Source of the DNA: Hymenobacter sp. BT188
GTDB lineage: Bacteria; Bacteroidota; Bacteroidia; Cytophagales; Hymenobacteraceae
Assembly: GCF_014333585.1 (NCBI RefSeq)
Contig: NZ_JACSCW010000005.1
Coordinates: 372,001-436,000 of the forward strand
DNA length: 64,000 nt
Direction: 5' to 3'
Under the pieces are notes generated by a model. The model did no database searches. It was not told the origin of the DNA and saw only the letters and a program-made list of their open reading frames with translations. Position numbers and translations under genes: made by a program. Shown piece after piece: positions 29,523-35,816 of the stretch (the first letter of the stretch is position 1; every line of letters begins with the position of its first letter).

Positions 29523-30725
29523 TTATACTGACTGTAATAAAGCAACACACTGCCGGGCAATGGCCAGCTCCTCATTGGTGGGCACCACCAGAATCTTCAC
29601 CCGCGCTTCCGCCTGATTAATTTCGCGTAGCTCCTTGGCCCATTTCTCGTTGCGGCCGTCATCAAGGTGAAGGCCCAGGAACTCCATGCTTCGGCAGACC
29701 AAGGCGCGAATACGGGCGTCGTTTTCGCCCACACCGGCCGTGAATACCACAGCGTCGAGGCCGTTGAGCACGGCAGCGTACGCCCCAATGTACTTCTGAA
29801 TGCGGTAAGCATAAAGGTCGTAGGCCAGCGCGGCGGTGGGGTCGCCAGCTAGCAGGGCTTTGGTAATGTCGCGCATGTCGCTGAAGCCAGTAAGGCCCAG
29901 CATACCACTGTTTTTGTTGAGCAGGTTTTGCACCTGAGCCGGCTCATAGCCCCGCTCATTTATCAGATGGAAAATAATCGACGGATCAAGGTCGCCGGAG
30001 CGCGTACCCATCACCAGGCCACTGAGCGGCCCAAAACCCATGCTGGTATCCACCGATTTGCCCCCCAGCACGGCTGCCATGCTACAGCCATTGCCCAAGT
30101 GAATGGTGATGATCTTGGCTGCCGGGTTGCCCAGGTAAGTAGCGGCCTGGGCGGCCACATACTGGTGGCTGGTGCCATGAAAGCCATAGGCCCGAATGCC
30201 GAACTCGGTGTAGAATGACGTAGGCAGCGCGTAACGGAAGGCTCTGGGGGGCAAAGTTTGGTGAAAAGCCGTATCAAACACCGCTACTTGCTGGGCCTGA
30301 GGAAACAGGTTTTCGGCCACCTCAATACCCAGATAATTGGCCGGATTGTGTAAGGGAGCCAGGGAGAATAGTCGCTTGATTTCAGCCTTCACTGCCGGGG
30401 TAATGAGCGCCGTAGCAGCGAAAGCCTCGCCGCCGTGCACCACCCGATGCCCCACCACTTCAATTTCCTGTGGGTCGCGGAGTACGCCTTCTGTTGGGTC
30501 GGTGAGCAAGCCGACAACTTCCCGCAACCCAGCCTCGTGGTCGGGCAGGGGCAGGCTGCGCTGGATAACAGCCCCGGCGTCGCTGGTGAAAACGTTGTGG
30601 GTGATACTGGCATCGGGCAGGCCGATGCGCTCCACCAGACCGCTGCACACGGGCTGCTCGGCGGGCCAGCGGAAGAGTTGATACTTAATAGAGCTGCTGC
30701 CGGAATTGATGACGAATAAGTACAT
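29523..30725 (-). CDS. ackA: acetate kinase
   Basis: A 400-residue enzyme that interconverts acetate plus ATP with acetyl phosphate. Family marks are FVINSGSSSIKYQLF at the start, VGHRVVHGGE at about 90-99, AVFDTAFHQTLPPRAFRYALP, FHGTSHQYV, HLGNGCSM, DTSMGFGPLSGLVMGTRSGDLDP and FTAGVGEN. Full length. With pta it forms the Pta-AckA path of acetate overflow and substrate-level ATP gain. pta lies 3 kb upstream on the same strand, but an AT-rich block of opposite-strand genes separates them. A decayed copy of the ackA 5' end lies in that block (32616-32716). Confidence 0.97.
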   Translation of the reverse strand: MYLFVINSGSSSIKYQLFRWPAEQPVCSGLVERIGLPDASITHNVFTSDAGAVIQRSLPLPDHEAGLREVVGLLTDPTEGVLRDPQEIEVVGHRVVHGGEAFAATALITPAVKAEIKRLFSLAPLHNPANYLGIEVAENLFPQAQQVAVFDTAFHQTLPPRAFRYALPTSFYTEFGIRAYGFHGTSHQYVAAQAATYLGNPAAKIITIHLGNGCSMAAVLGGKSVDTSMGFGPLSGLVMGTRSGDLDPSIIFHLINERGYEPAQVQNLLNKNSGMLGLTGFSDMRDITKALLAGDPTAALAYDLYAYRIQKYIGAYAAVLNGLDAVVFTAGVGENDARIRALVCRSMEFLGLHLDDGRNEKWAKELREINQAEARVKILVVPTNEELAIARQCVALLQSV

Positions 30726-31094: not shown

Positions 31095-31556
31095 ATGAGT
31101 ATCTCTTCCGCACTTGATCGTCTTCATAGTAGGGTAAGGCAAACTAGATGGCTCCGGGATTTCACCGTTTTCACTCGGATAGTTTTGGCTATGGGTTTTT
31201 TGCCTTCAGGTTACGTTAAAATTGTGGGTGAGCGGTTCACCGATTTGCCCATTTGTCATCCAATGGGTCATTATCTGGAGGCATTTCATCGCACTGGGTT
31301 TTACTACACGTTCGTGGGAGTGGTGCAGGTAACGGCAGCCTGTTTATTGCTGATTCCGCGCACCGCAACCTTAGGTGCAGTCCTTTATTTCCCCATCATT
31401 TTAAACATTTGTATCCTGACGTTTGCAGTGCGTTTTGTAGGATCGTGGGTGACTGCCCCTTTAATGGTACTGGCTAATTTATACCTGCTTTGCTGGGACT
31501 ATGACAAATTAAAATTTATCCTTCCGTTCAATAAACAAACAGATCTGATAAGCTAA
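31095..31556 (+). CDS. DoxX-like membrane protein
   Basis: A 153-residue protein with about four membrane helices: residues 25-43 (FTVFTRIVLAMGFLPSGYV), about 70-90, about 95-115 and about 120-135. The GFLPSGYVKI segment and YYTFVGVVQVTAACLLLIP resemble DoxX-family proteins. These occur in quinone-linked and thiol-redox membrane complexes; the substrate here is unknown. It opens an AT-rich plus-strand gene block lying between pta and ackA. Its codon use is more AT-rich than the neighbours. Confidence 0.78.
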   Translation: MSISSALDRLHSRVRQTRWLRDFTVFTRIVLAMGFLPSGYVKIVGERFTDLPICHPMGHYLEAFHRTGFYYTFVGVVQVTAACLLLIPRTATLGAVLYFPIILNICILTFAVRFVGSWVTAPLMVLANLYLLCWDYDKLKFILPFNKQTDLIS

Positions 31557-31594: not shown

Positions 31595-31819
31595 ATGAAA
31601 AAAATGTTATTCATGCTTGTTGCTACATTGCTATTTACAGCTGCTTGCGAAATTATGCCCGCCAATAGTTTAATAGATTGTAGGAAGCAATGTAAAGACA
31701 GTGATAAATCTAGAGCATGCTACGAGTTCTGTGATTGTATTCACAACAACTGCCAACCGCTGGATACTTGTTTAGCTGCATATGATAAGGCTGCAAAAGA
31801 TAATATTGGAAAGCCTTAG
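31595..31819 (+). CDS. small cysteine-rich lipoprotein
   Basis: A 74-residue lipoprotein: basic start (MKKM), hydrophobic core and LFTAAC lipobox (Cys 18). The mature part carries seven more Cys (DCRKQCKDSD, RACYEFCDCIHNNCQPLDTC), suggesting disulphides or metal binding. No family is recognised. The start is unusually well marked for this phylum: AAAGGAG, a Shine-Dalgarno-like run, lies four bases before the ATG. It is 38 bases after the DoxX gene and probably co-transcribed. Confidence 0.75.
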   Translation: MKKMLFMLVATLLFTAACEIMPANSLIDCRKQCKDSDKSRACYEFCDCIHNNCQPLDTCLAAYDKAAKDNIGKP

Positions 31820-31934: not shown

Positions 31935-32234
31935 ATGAATGCTACTTCAAATGCTTCGACACCTATTTCAAGTTTAATAGGCTGGCTGTTTGGCCTGCTG
32001 GCTTTGGCCATCGGCATCGTGAATACCTTTTGGGGCAATGATCCCGGATTCGGACTCTTTATCATCGCATTATCTCTTGCTTTTTTTCCTCCAGTGAACG
32101 CCTTCATTAAGGCAAAAGCTGGGTTTGCAATTCCTAGAATAGTAAAATGGCTCTTGGGCTTCTTTATTCTTTGGGCATCGTTAGGTGTGGGTGAACTCTT
32201 TGATAAGATTGACCTGATGATGGCATCTTTCTAA
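31935..32234 (+). CDS. small two- to three-helix membrane protein, copy 1
   Basis: A 99-residue membrane protein. The hydrophobic segments are SLIGWLFGLLALAIGIVNTF, FGLFIIALSLAFFPPVNAF and VKWLLGFFILWASLGVG. The motif FPPVNAFIKAKAGFAIP links it to the next gene (FPPVNAFLKEKTGFYIP), so the two are tandem paralogs. No named family is recognised; similar short proteins may occur in other bacteria. It belongs to the AT-rich plus-strand block. Confidence 0.72.
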   Translation: MNATSNASTPISSLIGWLFGLLALAIGIVNTFWGNDPGFGLFIIALSLAFFPPVNAFIKAKAGFAIPRIVKWLLGFFILWASLGVGELFDKIDLMMASF

Positions 32235-32328
32235 TCCTTGAGCAATGCCCTTGCGGCAAATGTAGAGAGTTGAAAACTAATTGTTTAAATCTGTTACTTG
32301 GCTGTTTCTCAAAACATCCACAAGGACC

Positions 32329-32616
32329 ATGAAAGAAAATGCAATGCAAAGGAAAACCACCCCATCAAGTATTATCGGTTGGGTATTTGGTATAATTGTT
32401 TTTGCTATTGGCGTAGCAAATGTATTCTTAGTGCACCCCGTTCCGGGGATTGTTTACCTGTTTCTATCATTAATATATTTTCCTCCGGTCAATGCTTTTC
32501 TCAAGGAAAAAACTGGTTTTTATATTCCTGGAGTTATAAAAATAATCTTGGGCATAATTATTATACAATTCACCTTAGGCGTGAGTGATCTTGGGGATAT
32601 GATTGATGATTTATAG
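32329..32616 (+). CDS. small membrane protein, copy 2 (tandem paralog)
   Basis: A 95-residue protein paralogous to the gene at 31935: SSIIGWVFGIIVFAIGVANVF, then YFPPVNAFLKEKTGFYIPGV and IIIIQFTLGVSDLGDMIDDL. A TTG at 32281 would add 16 residues that do not match the paralog. ATG 32329 (MKENAMQRK) or ATG 32344 gives a good match. Its stop abuts the ackA relic on the other strand. Paired small helical proteins often form hetero-oligomers; that is a guess here. Confidence 0.7.
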   Translation: MKENAMQRKTTPSSIIGWVFGIIVFAIGVANVFLVHPVPGIVYLFLSLIYFPPVNAFLKEKTGFYIPGVIKIILGIIIIQFTLGVSDLGDMIDDL

Positions 32617-32716
32617 ATCTGCGGCTTGCATTTCTCAGATCAATGCGTTCGACGGGCTAGCGAAACAGTTGACATTTGATGGGACTATTACTGTAGTTGA
32701 CGACGAAGATGTTCAT
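32616..32716 (-). pseudogene. relic of ackA 5' end
   Basis: Read on the minus strand from the ATG at 32716, the translation is MNIFVVNYSNSPIKCQLFR, then a stop (TAG), then PVERIDLRNAS. The intact AckA has MYLFVINSGSSSIKYQLFR, W, P, an eight- or nine-residue stretch missing from the relic, then VERIGLPDAS. The stop is where AckA has Trp, so one base change (TGG to TAG) explains it. Homology ends near the stop of the neighbouring membrane-protein gene. This is a truncated, decayed copy of ackA, in the same orientation as the intact gene and next to pta. Confidence 0.75.
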
Positions 32717-33039
32717 AGAATAAAATAATACCCTTAACTCTACTTTCTGGGAGGGAGGAGCATAGTAATGAGTTGGAGGCAAGATCGAAACAGGATAGAA
32801 AAGTTCTGTACGTAGCACAATTGACGATGGGTAAAATGAGTAGATTATCCAAGTGTTACTTTTCATGCGCGGATCCGGCAAAGTGACCTGTATCAAATTT
32901 CACCAACCATAATTTTCTCGGCGCCTAAGTTTATTATTAAATAAAATCAAAATAATTAAAAAATGTAATACATTTATATACTTTAGGTCCACATAATCCT
33001 ATACCTCACTTACCCTTCAACATTTTTTTGAAAAATAAA
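32617..33039. other. 423-base AT-rich region without an intact gene
   Basis: Apart from the ackA relic at its left end, no gene is supported. The segment 32920-33000 is very AT-rich and includes TATACTTTAG near 32980, close to a -7 box (one mismatch), possibly for the gene at 33040. Confidence 0.5.
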
Positions 33040-33597
33040 ATGAAAAAAACAATTACATCAACGATGCTTTTTGCTGCCCTCTTGCTCACGGTCGCAACAA
33101 ATTCAGTGCAAGCACAAACAAAACCCGCTACACTGGCGCGCTATAAAGACACGGTGGAGGAAAACCTCAGTGCGGATGCGGATATCAATATTGTGACTGA
33201 GTATGTGAATACGTTAGTAGGAGGAAATGCAGATAAGGCAAAAATGCTTTTGGCAAGCAATTACAAAGGGTATGGTCCTTCTGCAGCCGACTCATCTACT
33301 GCTGAGAAAGTAGTGAGCGGATGGAAGCAGGACTATAAGGTGCAATCAAACCGAAAATTCGACTTTGTAAAGGCGACGTTTCGTGTTAAATCGGGGAATT
33401 TCAAAGGTAATTGGGTGTCATTGTGGGGCAATTACAGCTTCACTCAAAGTGGCAAAAATGTCACATTCCCTGTTCACTACAACGCTCACGTAACAAACGG
33501 GAAGATCGACCGGGACTATATCTACTTTGACAGGTTGTCTGTGTACCAAACCCTGGGCTACAAGCTGGCACCTCCCGCCGCTGCGGTGGCTAAGTAA
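33040..33597 (+). CDS. exported SnoaL/NTF2-like protein
   Basis: A 185-residue protein with a Sec signal (MKKTITSTMLFAALLLTVAT, cleavage after VQAQ). The mature domain contains VTEYVNTLVGGNADKAKMLL, then NYKGYGPSAADSST and a run of beta strands ending GKIDRDYIYFDRL. This resembles SnoaL-like/NTF2-fold proteins, which may be enzymes or ligand binders; here the function is unknown. ATG 33040 was preferred over a TTG at 33028. It is the last gene of the AT-rich block and ends at a terminator facing pta. Confidence 0.75.
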   Translation: MKKTITSTMLFAALLLTVATNSVQAQTKPATLARYKDTVEENLSADADINIVTEYVNTLVGGNADKAKMLLASNYKGYGPSAADSSTAEKVVSGWKQDYKVQSNRKFDFVKATFRVKSGNFKGNWVSLWGNYSFTQSGKNVTFPVHYNAHVTNGKIDRDYIYFDRLSVYQTLGYKLAPPAAAVAK

Positions 33598-33621
33598 CGA
33601 TTCGTCAGGTTCAAATAAAAA

Positions 33622-33655
33622 GTCCCGCCTACAGTATTTGCTATAGGCGGGACCT
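33622..33655. terminator. terminator between SnoaL-like gene and pta
   Basis: GTCCCGCCTACAG and CTATAGGCGGGAC pair (one G-U) around TATTTG, preceded by an A-run. It lies between convergent genes. Confidence 0.75.
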
Positions 33656-33725
33656 CTTATTTGATTTTAAATTTATGGCCGCACGACCTACCTGTATTGT
33701 GGCAGATTCCGCCCTATGCTACTAA

Positions 33726-35816
33726 TTACCCCTGCGCCTGTATAGCGGTGATAATCACCGTATTCACTACGTCTTCCACGGTACAGCCTCGGCTCAAGTC
33801 GTTTACCGGCTTATTCAGCCCTTGTAATACCGGGCCGATGGCTAAGGCGCCGGTTTCGCGCTGCACGGCTTTGTATGTGTTATTGCCGGTGTTCAGATCG
33901 GGAAAAATGAGCACGCTGGCCTGGCCGGCTACCGTGGAGTCGGGGAGCTTCTGGCGGCCCACGATGGGGTCGACGGCGGCGTCGTACTGGATAGGGCCTT
34001 CCACTTGCAGGTCGGGGCGGAGCTGGTGCACGAGCTGGGTGGCGCGGCGCACTTTCTCTACTTCCGCGCCTTCGCCGGAGGTGCCCGAGGAGTAGGAGAG
34101 CATGGCCACGCGGGGCTCGATGCCGAAACGCAGGCTGCTTTCGGCCGAGGAAATAGCAATTTCGGCTAGCTGCTCGGCAGTGGGGTTGGGGTTCACGGCG
34201 CAGTCGCCGAACACGGCCACACGGTCGGGGAGGCACATAAAAAACACGGACGACACCACTGACATGCCGGGCTTGGTTTTAATAAACTGCAGGGCCGGCC
34301 GGATGGTGTGCTGGGTAGTGTGCACCGCCCCCGATACCATGCCGTCGGCGTGGCCCTGGTAAACCATCATGGTGCCGAAGTAGGAGACATCCGTCATCAT
34401 GTCGCGGGCCATGTCGAGGTTCACGTTTTTGGCTTTGCGCAGCTCGTAGAGGGTTTCGGCATACTCGGCGAAGCGGGGCGCGTGAGCCGGGTCAAGCAGC
34501 TGGATTCGGGTCAGATCGAGGCTTAAACCCAGGCGGTTGACGGCGGCCGTGATGGCCGTGGGGTCGCCGAGAATGGTCAGGTCTACCACGTCCATCTGCT
34601 GGAGGCGGGCAGCGGCGCGCAGAATCCGGTCGTCGTTGCCTTCGGGCAGCACAATGTGGCGGCGCTGGCTTTTGGCCCACTGCATGAGCTGGTACTGAAA
34701 CATGTGCGGCGTGATGCCCTCCGCCTTGAACGTGACCAGCTTTTCCTCCAGCGCGGCCACATCTACATACTGCTCGAAGGTGCTGATGGCTAGCTCAATT
34801 TTCTTCGGGTTATCGGGCGAAATGCGCGACTGGATAGCGCCTATCTGGGTGGTAGTGAGGAAGGTGCCAGTGGAGACGGACAGGATGGGTATCACGGTTT
34901 CGAGGCCTTCGAGGAGACGTACCACGTACTCGTCGGGGCCGATGTCGCCGGTGAGCACGATGCCCGCTACTTTCGGGAAGTTGGCCGAGGCATTGGCCTG
35001 CAAAGCGCCCAGAATAATGTCGGCGCGGTCGCCGGGCGTGACGATGAGCACGTTTTCCTTAATGCGCCGCAGGAAGTTAGGTACCTGCATGGCCCCGGTG
35101 ATGAAATTGTCGACCTGGTTGCTCAAAAGGTGTTCGCCGAGCAATAATTTTCCCCCCAGCTGCTCCTGAATCTCCTTCATGCTGGGGCTGCGCAGGCTTT
35201 GGTTTTCGGGAATAACAGTCAGGACGATGCCTGCCGGTAATTGCCCTCTAAGCAGCTCGCGCACGGTATCGGCTTCGCTGGGGGGCATTTTGTTAACCAT
35301 AATAGCCAACACTGGTACCTCCCGGGCTTCGAAGCTGCGCAGCATCGTGAGGGCAGCATTCACTATTTGATTAGTCGTTTTTGCCTCGCCCGAAATCATG
35401 AGAATAGCCGGTGCACCCAGATTCTTGGCAATGGAAATATTGGCGTCAAATTCAAACGCTGTTCCCGCTCCCAGAAAGTCGCTGCCCTCCACCACGATGA
35501 AGTCGTAGTGCTCCTCTAAAGCCTTGAACTTGTGTATAATAGTATCAATGATATCGCCTTGCGTGTCCGTTTCCACCAGGTGCATGGCCGCCGCGCGGGT
35601 GTAGGCGTAGGCACCATCATAGGTGATGGGCAGCCTGAAATGGCCGATTATTGTTTCGATGTGGGTGTCCCTTTTTTCGGCGGGCTCAAAGTTGATGATG
35701 GGCTTAAAGTAGCCGACTCTGGGCGTTTTGCGCAGCAGCATGTTAATTAAGCCCAACGACACGAGCGACTTGCCGCTGTACGGCTCAGCGGCGGCAATGA
35801 AAACGGTTTTGGTCAT
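33726..35816 (-). CDS. pta: phosphate acetyltransferase, long form
   Basis: A 696-residue enzyme converting acetyl-CoA and phosphate to acetyl phosphate. The N-terminal P-loop domain (AAAEPYSGKSLVSLGLIN) is followed by a DRTGG-type regulatory domain (about 220-330). The C-terminal PTA_PTB catalytic domain (about 370-690) has VLPEGNDDRILRAA, DGMVSGAVHTTQHTIRPALQ, VFGDCAVNPNPTAEQLAEIA, MLSYSSGTSGEG and FPDLNTGNNTYKAVQR. This is the long form found in Bacteroidota and enterics. In many relatives pta is directly followed by ackA; here the AT-rich block comes between. Confidence 0.96.
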   Translation of the reverse strand: MTKTVFIAAAEPYSGKSLVSLGLINMLLRKTPRVGYFKPIINFEPAEKRDTHIETIIGHFRLPITYDGAYAYTRAAAMHLVETDTQGDIIDTIIHKFKALEEHYDFIVVEGSDFLGAGTAFEFDANISIAKNLGAPAILMISGEAKTTNQIVNAALTMLRSFEAREVPVLAIMVNKMPPSEADTVRELLRGQLPAGIVLTVIPENQSLRSPSMKEIQEQLGGKLLLGEHLLSNQVDNFITGAMQVPNFLRRIKENVLIVTPGDRADIILGALQANASANFPKVAGIVLTGDIGPDEYVVRLLEGLETVIPILSVSTGTFLTTTQIGAIQSRISPDNPKKIELAISTFEQYVDVAALEEKLVTFKAEGITPHMFQYQLMQWAKSQRRHIVLPEGNDDRILRAAARLQQMDVVDLTILGDPTAITAAVNRLGLSLDLTRIQLLDPAHAPRFAEYAETLYELRKAKNVNLDMARDMMTDVSYFGTMMVYQGHADGMVSGAVHTTQHTIRPALQFIKTKPGMSVVSSVFFMCLPDRVAVFGDCAVNPNPTAEQLAEIAISSAESSLRFGIEPRVAMLSYSSGTSGEGAEVEKVRRATQLVHQLRPDLQVEGPIQYDAAVDPIVGRQKLPDSTVAGQASVLIFPDLNTGNNTYKAVQRETGALAIGPVLQGLNKPVNDLSRGCTVEDVVNTVIITAIQAQG

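Follow-up and report, generated by a model that had tools for sequence, protein, structure and literature searches.

The 64,000-nucleotide stretch of the Hymenobacter sp. BT188 genome analysed here (the window) carries, between pta and an intact ackA, a second and decayed copy of the beginning of the acetate kinase gene. The alignments confirm that this pseudogene piece, hereafter the relic, is a 5' fragment of ackA (Pfam PF00871). It occupies 93 bases of the minus strand (32624-32716) and comprises codons 1-21 and 31-40, with the translation MNIFVVNYSNSPIKCQLFR*PVERIDLRNAS. Codons 1-20 lie at 32657-32716, and codon 20, which encodes W20 in the intact protein, reads TAG (32657-32659). A 27-base deletion has removed nine codons, A22-L30, and the piece that follows it (32624-32656) consists of codon 21 (Pro, 32654-32656) and codons 31-40 (VERIDLRNAS, 32624-32653). 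The earlier note on this DNA had proposed a degraded ackA start with a stop at the Trp position and a gap of eight or nine codons, oriented as the intact gene, nearer to pta and placed at a junction. All of these claims are borne out, with the gap fixed at nine codons.

A tblastn search of 73 pta-ackA stretches from 72 genomes with AckA residues 1-40 recovered the relic as a single gapped alignment to the BT188 protein (E 1.5e-4), the stop standing opposite W20. No comparable second AckA match was found in the stretches of the 71 other genomes (best E 0.17). At the DNA level, the relic aligns to the ackA of its own genome with a local score of 28.0, the maximum among 974 random stretches of the window being 22.9. 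Moreover, several congeners match it by blastn, and the ackA start of G059 is 84% identical over 70 bp (E 2.1e-15). The likeness extends past the first codons: when VERIDLRNAS alone was aligned without gaps to AckA codons 21-59, its score was equalled by 1 of 20,000 stop-free 30-mers of the window. The relic spans only about 93 bases, which might invite the view that its likeness to ackA is fortuitous. However, an E value of 2e-15, the failure of all 974 control stretches to score as well, and the finding of both pieces in frame and in order contradict this view and make it next to impossible.

Decay of the relic is also apparent from its residues. Five of 13 codons that are conserved in at least 95% of 72 genes are altered, besides the stop (G022, the relic stop codon and codon 21 were left out of these counts), and the N-terminal motif invariants Gly9, Ser10 and Ser12 (BT188 AckA numbering) are among the altered positions. 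Between the relic and functional genes, the mean number of residue differences over the first 19 codons is 6.75 (minimum 5), against 2.7 (maximum 7) for pairs of functional ackA genes; over 29 codons the values are 11.3 (minimum 9) and 6.4 (maximum 12), respectively. Synonymous divergence (dS) of BT188 is 0.41 to G010, 0.52 to G091 and 0.56 to G064, and by a rough estimate the decay of the relic corresponds to a single branch after the divergence from G010. The relic cannot encode a kinase, because nothing past codon 40 is left and the one AckA match in the whole genome is the intact gene. It is a small evolutionary scar, ordinary in kind, and does not function.

The position of the relic becomes informative when the region is compared with the closest relatives, G010 and G091. 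In BT188, the gene order is ackA (29523-30725, minus strand), a DoxX-like gene (31095-31556, plus; below the Pfam cutoff), a small lipoprotein-like gene (31595-31819, plus), membrane protein gene 1 (31935-32234, plus), its paralogue membrane protein gene 2 (32329-32616, plus), the relic (minus), a SnoaL-like gene (33040-33597, plus; SnoaL below the Pfam cutoff) and pta (33726-35816, minus). The lipoprotein-like and membrane genes have no Pfam match, and the lipoprotein label and the membrane nature of both paralogues were assigned by eye. The cassette that runs from the DoxX-like gene to membrane protein gene 2 is also present, together with ackA and pta, in G010 and G091, and it is therefore older than their split. 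The three genomes align as far as the membrane protein gene 2 stop codon (32614-32616), which touches the junction with the relic (32617-32623), and again from the end of pta onward. Neither G010 nor G091 has the relic, both in this alignment and by tblastn. Because the shared sequence ends at that stop, the alignment places the relic at the left edge of an insertion that came later and is confined to this genome. The reading of the relic as the right border of an insertion thus holds for the cassette that BT188 has in common with G010 and G091; it does not hold for the genome-specific insert, which continues to pta with the SnoaL-like gene. An A+T-rich spacer (32717-33039, 33.4% G+C) lies upstream of the relic ATG, and the space from the SnoaL-like gene to pta holds an inverted repeat (33611-33664) that may act as a shared terminator.

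The slot between the alignment break and pta holds different DNA in each of the three genomes: the relic and the SnoaL-like gene in BT188, a lipoprotein-like frame with no Pfam match in G010, and a DUF2314 protein in G091. Pairwise tblastx comparison of the three slots, up to E 1, gave a single 9-codon match (E 0.45). By blastn, the slots of BT188 and G010 share one inverted A+T-rich match (66% over 102 bp, E 2.5e-4), which we take for an effect of base composition, and the remaining matches among the three slots have E values of 0.095 or worse. The next relative, G064, carries an Abi_alpha protein in its pta-ackA interval; its assembly splits within that gene, between ackA and pta (end of L041, start of L230). 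Frame breaks occur in both G010 (L042) and G091 (L043) at near-identical codons of ackA (about codon 222) and of a histidine kinase gene (about codon 125), and pta is also broken in both, at different codons. These breaks are probably sequencing errors.

On the far side of the intact ackA lie a cupin-like gene (Pfam MannoseP_isomer) and a LuxR-type gene, as in G064, G059, G050 and G062, and an ABC-F gene stands farther along in G064, G050 and G062 (we read ABC-F from matches to ABC_tran and ABC_tran_Xtn). Protein trees were built for Pta and AckA (32 genomes) and for ABC-F (30 genomes), G010 being in none of them. In each tree, BT188, G091 and G064 form a clade with 100% support, and resolution of the deeper nodes is poor. 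The intact ackA appears to be native, since it keeps the same neighbours as in relatives and falls in the same clade as Pta and ABC-F. The native pta, for its part, is highly similar to those of G010, G091 and G064 until about its stop codon, with 83-99% identity in most 100-bp steps and 74% in a few, up to the 3' end; a mosaic test against these three genomes detected no foreign tract, the side facing the relic included. One option in the earlier note was that the inserted DNA brought the intact ackA, the relic being the disrupted original. The relic is indeed the nearer of the two to pta, and in 27 of 71 genomes fewer than 300 bp separate pta from ackA. We nevertheless judge this replacement highly improbable, given that the working ackA keeps the downstream neighbours seen in G064, G059, G050 and G062, that it shares its clade with Pta and ABC-F, and that G010 and G091 have both the block and ackA without a relic. 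For the time since the common ancestor of BT188 and G064, replacement of ackA is contradicted by the neighbours and the concordant trees.

If the intact gene is native, the relic could still derive from it, and a phylogeny had been proposed to separate the two. Over codons 1-20, G059 is identical to the relic at 50 of 60 bases and each of G144, G064, G061, G060 and G022 at 48 of 60, against 41 for the BT188 ackA, 40 for G091 and 39 for G010. We placed it on an ackA tree of 72 genomes, which lacks G022, and on one of 73, which adds it; G142, G010 and G091 entered as partial genes owing to their frame breaks, G013 was kept, and the relic stop codon and codon 21 were left out. On the 73-genome tree, with about 90 bases to place it, nine branches come within 0.5 lnL of the best placement, among them the stem of BT188, G064, G010 and G091 and that of G032, G050, G059 and G062. 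A position as sister of the BT188 gene, expected of a recent tandem duplicate, fits considerably worse: with 29 codons, the BT188 tip or the branch joining it to G010 is 10.0 lnL below the best (bp-RELL 0.003; AU 0.065, so that the BT188 tip survives at the 5% level), and the tip is 10.9 lnL below when the first 19 codons are used (AU 0.017). The 72-genome tree agrees (9.5 lnL worse, AU 0.054). The phylogeny hence sets the relic outside the pair formed by BT188 and G010, the intact gene appearing native by neighbours and clade.

A recent partial duplication of the 5' end of the BT188 ackA, for example as a by-product of the insertion, would explain why the relic lies on the same strand as ackA and only 2 kb away, with both pieces similar in frame. 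The VERI..L..AS piece also lends it some support, as the BT188 gene is among the best matches over codons 31-40 (19 of 30 bases, the highest among 72 being 20), and the AU value with 29 codons does not reject it. We consider such a duplication improbable, however, in view of the likelihood deficit of 10-11 lnL, of the 16.5 synonymous differences over 18.2 synonymous sites that separate the relic from the BT188 gene, and of residues Asn2 and Val6, where BT188, G010, G091 and G064 have Tyr2 and Ile6 in common. A recent origin of the relic as a copy of the present ackA is thus unlikely. An attachment-site duplicate left by an integrase was also considered and rejected: the relic and the BT188 ackA start are identical at 41 of 60 positions, and no direct repeat joins them.

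An import is the simplest account of the relic, which G010 and G091 do not have, which stands at the breakpoint and is not of the BT188 type, and whose decay amounts, by a rough estimate, to about one branch. The analysis shows what the relic is, its place at the breakpoint, its absence from the two relatives and how poorly a recent copy of the BT188 ackA would fit; the import itself, the donor arrangement and the mode of joining are inferred. After the split from G010, the genome would have taken up part of a pta-ackA interval from a different lineage, including a SnoaL-like gene and the beginning of that lineage's ackA. On the pta side, this DNA would have joined at or near the end of pta by homologous pairing, and on the opposite side just past membrane protein gene 2, with no visible homology. 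This junction would have cut the imported ackA, which would then never have worked in this genome, and the stub would have decayed through point changes, the premature stop and the 27-base deletion. We give even chances to this origin of the relic from imported DNA of another lineage's pta-ackA interval. In its favour are the end of the sequence shared with G010 and G091 at the membrane protein gene 2 stop with no coding similarity from there to pta, the closer likeness to the ackA of some congeners (48-50 of 60 bases, against 39-41 for BT188, G091 and G010), and the variable gene content of the pta-ackA interval across the genus. Against it, no donor came to light among 120 genus genomes, the spacer upstream of the relic has no relative in the genomes searched, the near-best placements include the stem of the clade of BT188 and G064, and pta has no foreign 3' tract, the supposed anchor having left no trace there.

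On the other hand, the relic might be the last piece of an old second ackA that stood beside pta in the ancestor of BT188, G010, G091 and G064, whether an ancient duplicate or an earlier acquisition, persisted for long in the BT188 lineage and was lost elsewhere. The stem of these four genomes is the best placement on the 72-genome tree and lies within 0.08 lnL of the best on the 73-genome tree, and the relic is oriented as ackA and adjacent to the pta side. However, separate losses would be needed in G010, G091 and G064, each of which has different DNA in the interval, and the extent of decay, set against dS values of 0.41-0.56, suggests by a rough estimate that the second copy would have functioned beside the other ackA until late. 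We regard this explanation as possible, with some doubt. The proposal in the earlier note that a tandem copy was lost keeps some likelihood, but a recent copy of the BT188 gene fits about 10 lnL worse, and neither G010 nor G091 has the relic.

Searches for a donor of the presumed import returned none: neither the relic DNA in 99 genomes, nor the relic with the SnoaL-like gene in 120 genomes of the genus, nor the relic with the spacer in 390 genomes of the order identified one. For the spacer itself, bar a few bases beside the ATG, no match in these 390 genomes reached E 1e-6. The interval DNA had no match among phages and no donor among plasmids, where nine records matched, the annotated ones at ackA and one being unannotated. 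The SnoaL-like protein also yielded no plasmid donor, with one match of 42% on a Spirosoma plasmid, and in a scan of genome contigs with AckA none of the best 80 matches listed exceeded 66% identity. A homologue of the SnoaL-like gene occurs in six of the 120 genus genomes, BT188 included, and in BT188 alone does it lie between pta and ackA. In G139, the homologue and ackA are on different contigs, and G046, G049, G070 and G077, which also bear it, have no AckA match. No ackA fragment was found within the 3.4-10 kb around the five other homologues (best E 0.20), and no arrangement of pta, SnoaL-like gene and ackA that could serve as donor was found among the 120 genomes.

The joints produced by homology-facilitated illegitimate recombination are homologous at one end and illegitimate at the other (PMC3240628). 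The process has been proposed, and called rare, for displaced effector gene ends in the type VI secretion system (T6SS) clusters of Vibrio cholerae (PMC5361080). The remnants described there resemble the relic in that the truncated end of a conserved gene stands beside newly arrived cargo, and in that the insert abuts conserved sequence on one side and has no visible homology on the other. They differ in that the relic is the 5' end of a housekeeping gene, with no donor found and no anchor visible in pta. In BT188, the end expected to be homologous abuts a conserved pta that is free of foreign tracts. The other end is a clean break after the membrane protein gene 2 stop; eight short families of direct repeats of at least 14 bp were detected, and none of them links the two ends of the insert. 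Because no matching donor was found among 120 genomes, we do not file the relic as an established scar of this process. With ordinary pseudogenes of duplicated or displaced metabolic genes, it shares the premature stop, the in-frame deletion, the lost conserved residues and the truncation; it departs from them in that its recent parent is probably not the working copy. In the literature covered, nothing was found on acetate kinase and phosphate acetyltransferase, or on horizontal gene transfer and natural competence, in Hymenobacter, and for intergenic insertions at pta-ackA in Bacteroidetes the one match concerned Yersinia.

The gap between pta and ackA is an operon junction in many bacteria. 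Of 85 Hymenobacter genomes with an AckA match, 13 were left out of the interval comparison, either because ackA and pta are distant from each other or on separate contigs (G013, G016, G027, G004, G030, G099, G075) or because the match is a distant kinase type or a fragment (G066, G011, G051, G096, G053, G083). Among the remaining 72, G064 is split over two contigs and is not in the table of 71 intervals. Across these 71, the gap ranges from 31 to 4515 bp. A co-directed DUF808 gene is present in 23 of the intervals, and other cargo includes Zeta_toxin-like and DUF6602 proteins (G060), an acyltransferase (G050) and a GIY-YIG protein (G059). Genes similar to the DoxX, lipoprotein and membrane genes of the cassette lie in the same interval of G092, G052 and G045, a membrane gene in that of G142, and weak DoxX matches (25-30%) in those of G009, G023 and G039. 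In seven intervals of at least 300 bp, no query gave a match. The intervals of G078 and G086 carry an intact tyrosine recombinase together with an SSB protein, and 3' stubs of that recombinase lie within about 300 bp of ackA in G059 (L162, 36 codons) and G035 (L194, 24 codons). Site-specific integration was rejected for BT188: these four intervals have the recombinase or its stubs, the BT188 interval has neither, and the G086 recombinase found no match in it at E values up to 5.

Tentatively, the pta-ackA gap of the genus could be a lasting point of entry for passing genes, which species would trade through recombination in the housekeeping genes on either side, with the ackA stub of BT188 and the recombinase stubs of G059 and G035 as footprints. 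Such cargo would be of defence-like, toxin-like, lipoprotein, recombinase and metabolic types. Because the pta-ackA interval alone was surveyed, the hotspot is offered as a suggestion. In this sense, the relic suggests that the gap admits foreign genes and that imports may leave behind roughly datable stubs of a flanking gene. Their number could serve to test by what route cargo gets into housekeeping intervals when no integrase is involved.

The Pta/AckA pathway itself seems to be often absent in the genus, with no AckA match at E 1e-5 in 35 of the 120 genomes and no Pta match at E 1e-50 in 37; in four more, G089, G046, G147 and G053, Pta matches in its C-terminal part alone, at about 36%. 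A broken copy of the tyrosine recombinase of G078 and G086 occurs elsewhere in the BT188 genome (G000:C11:392739-393155). Finally, the small tandem membrane protein paralogues of the cassette (31935-32616) are also found as two copies in G010, G091, G042, G145 and G156.
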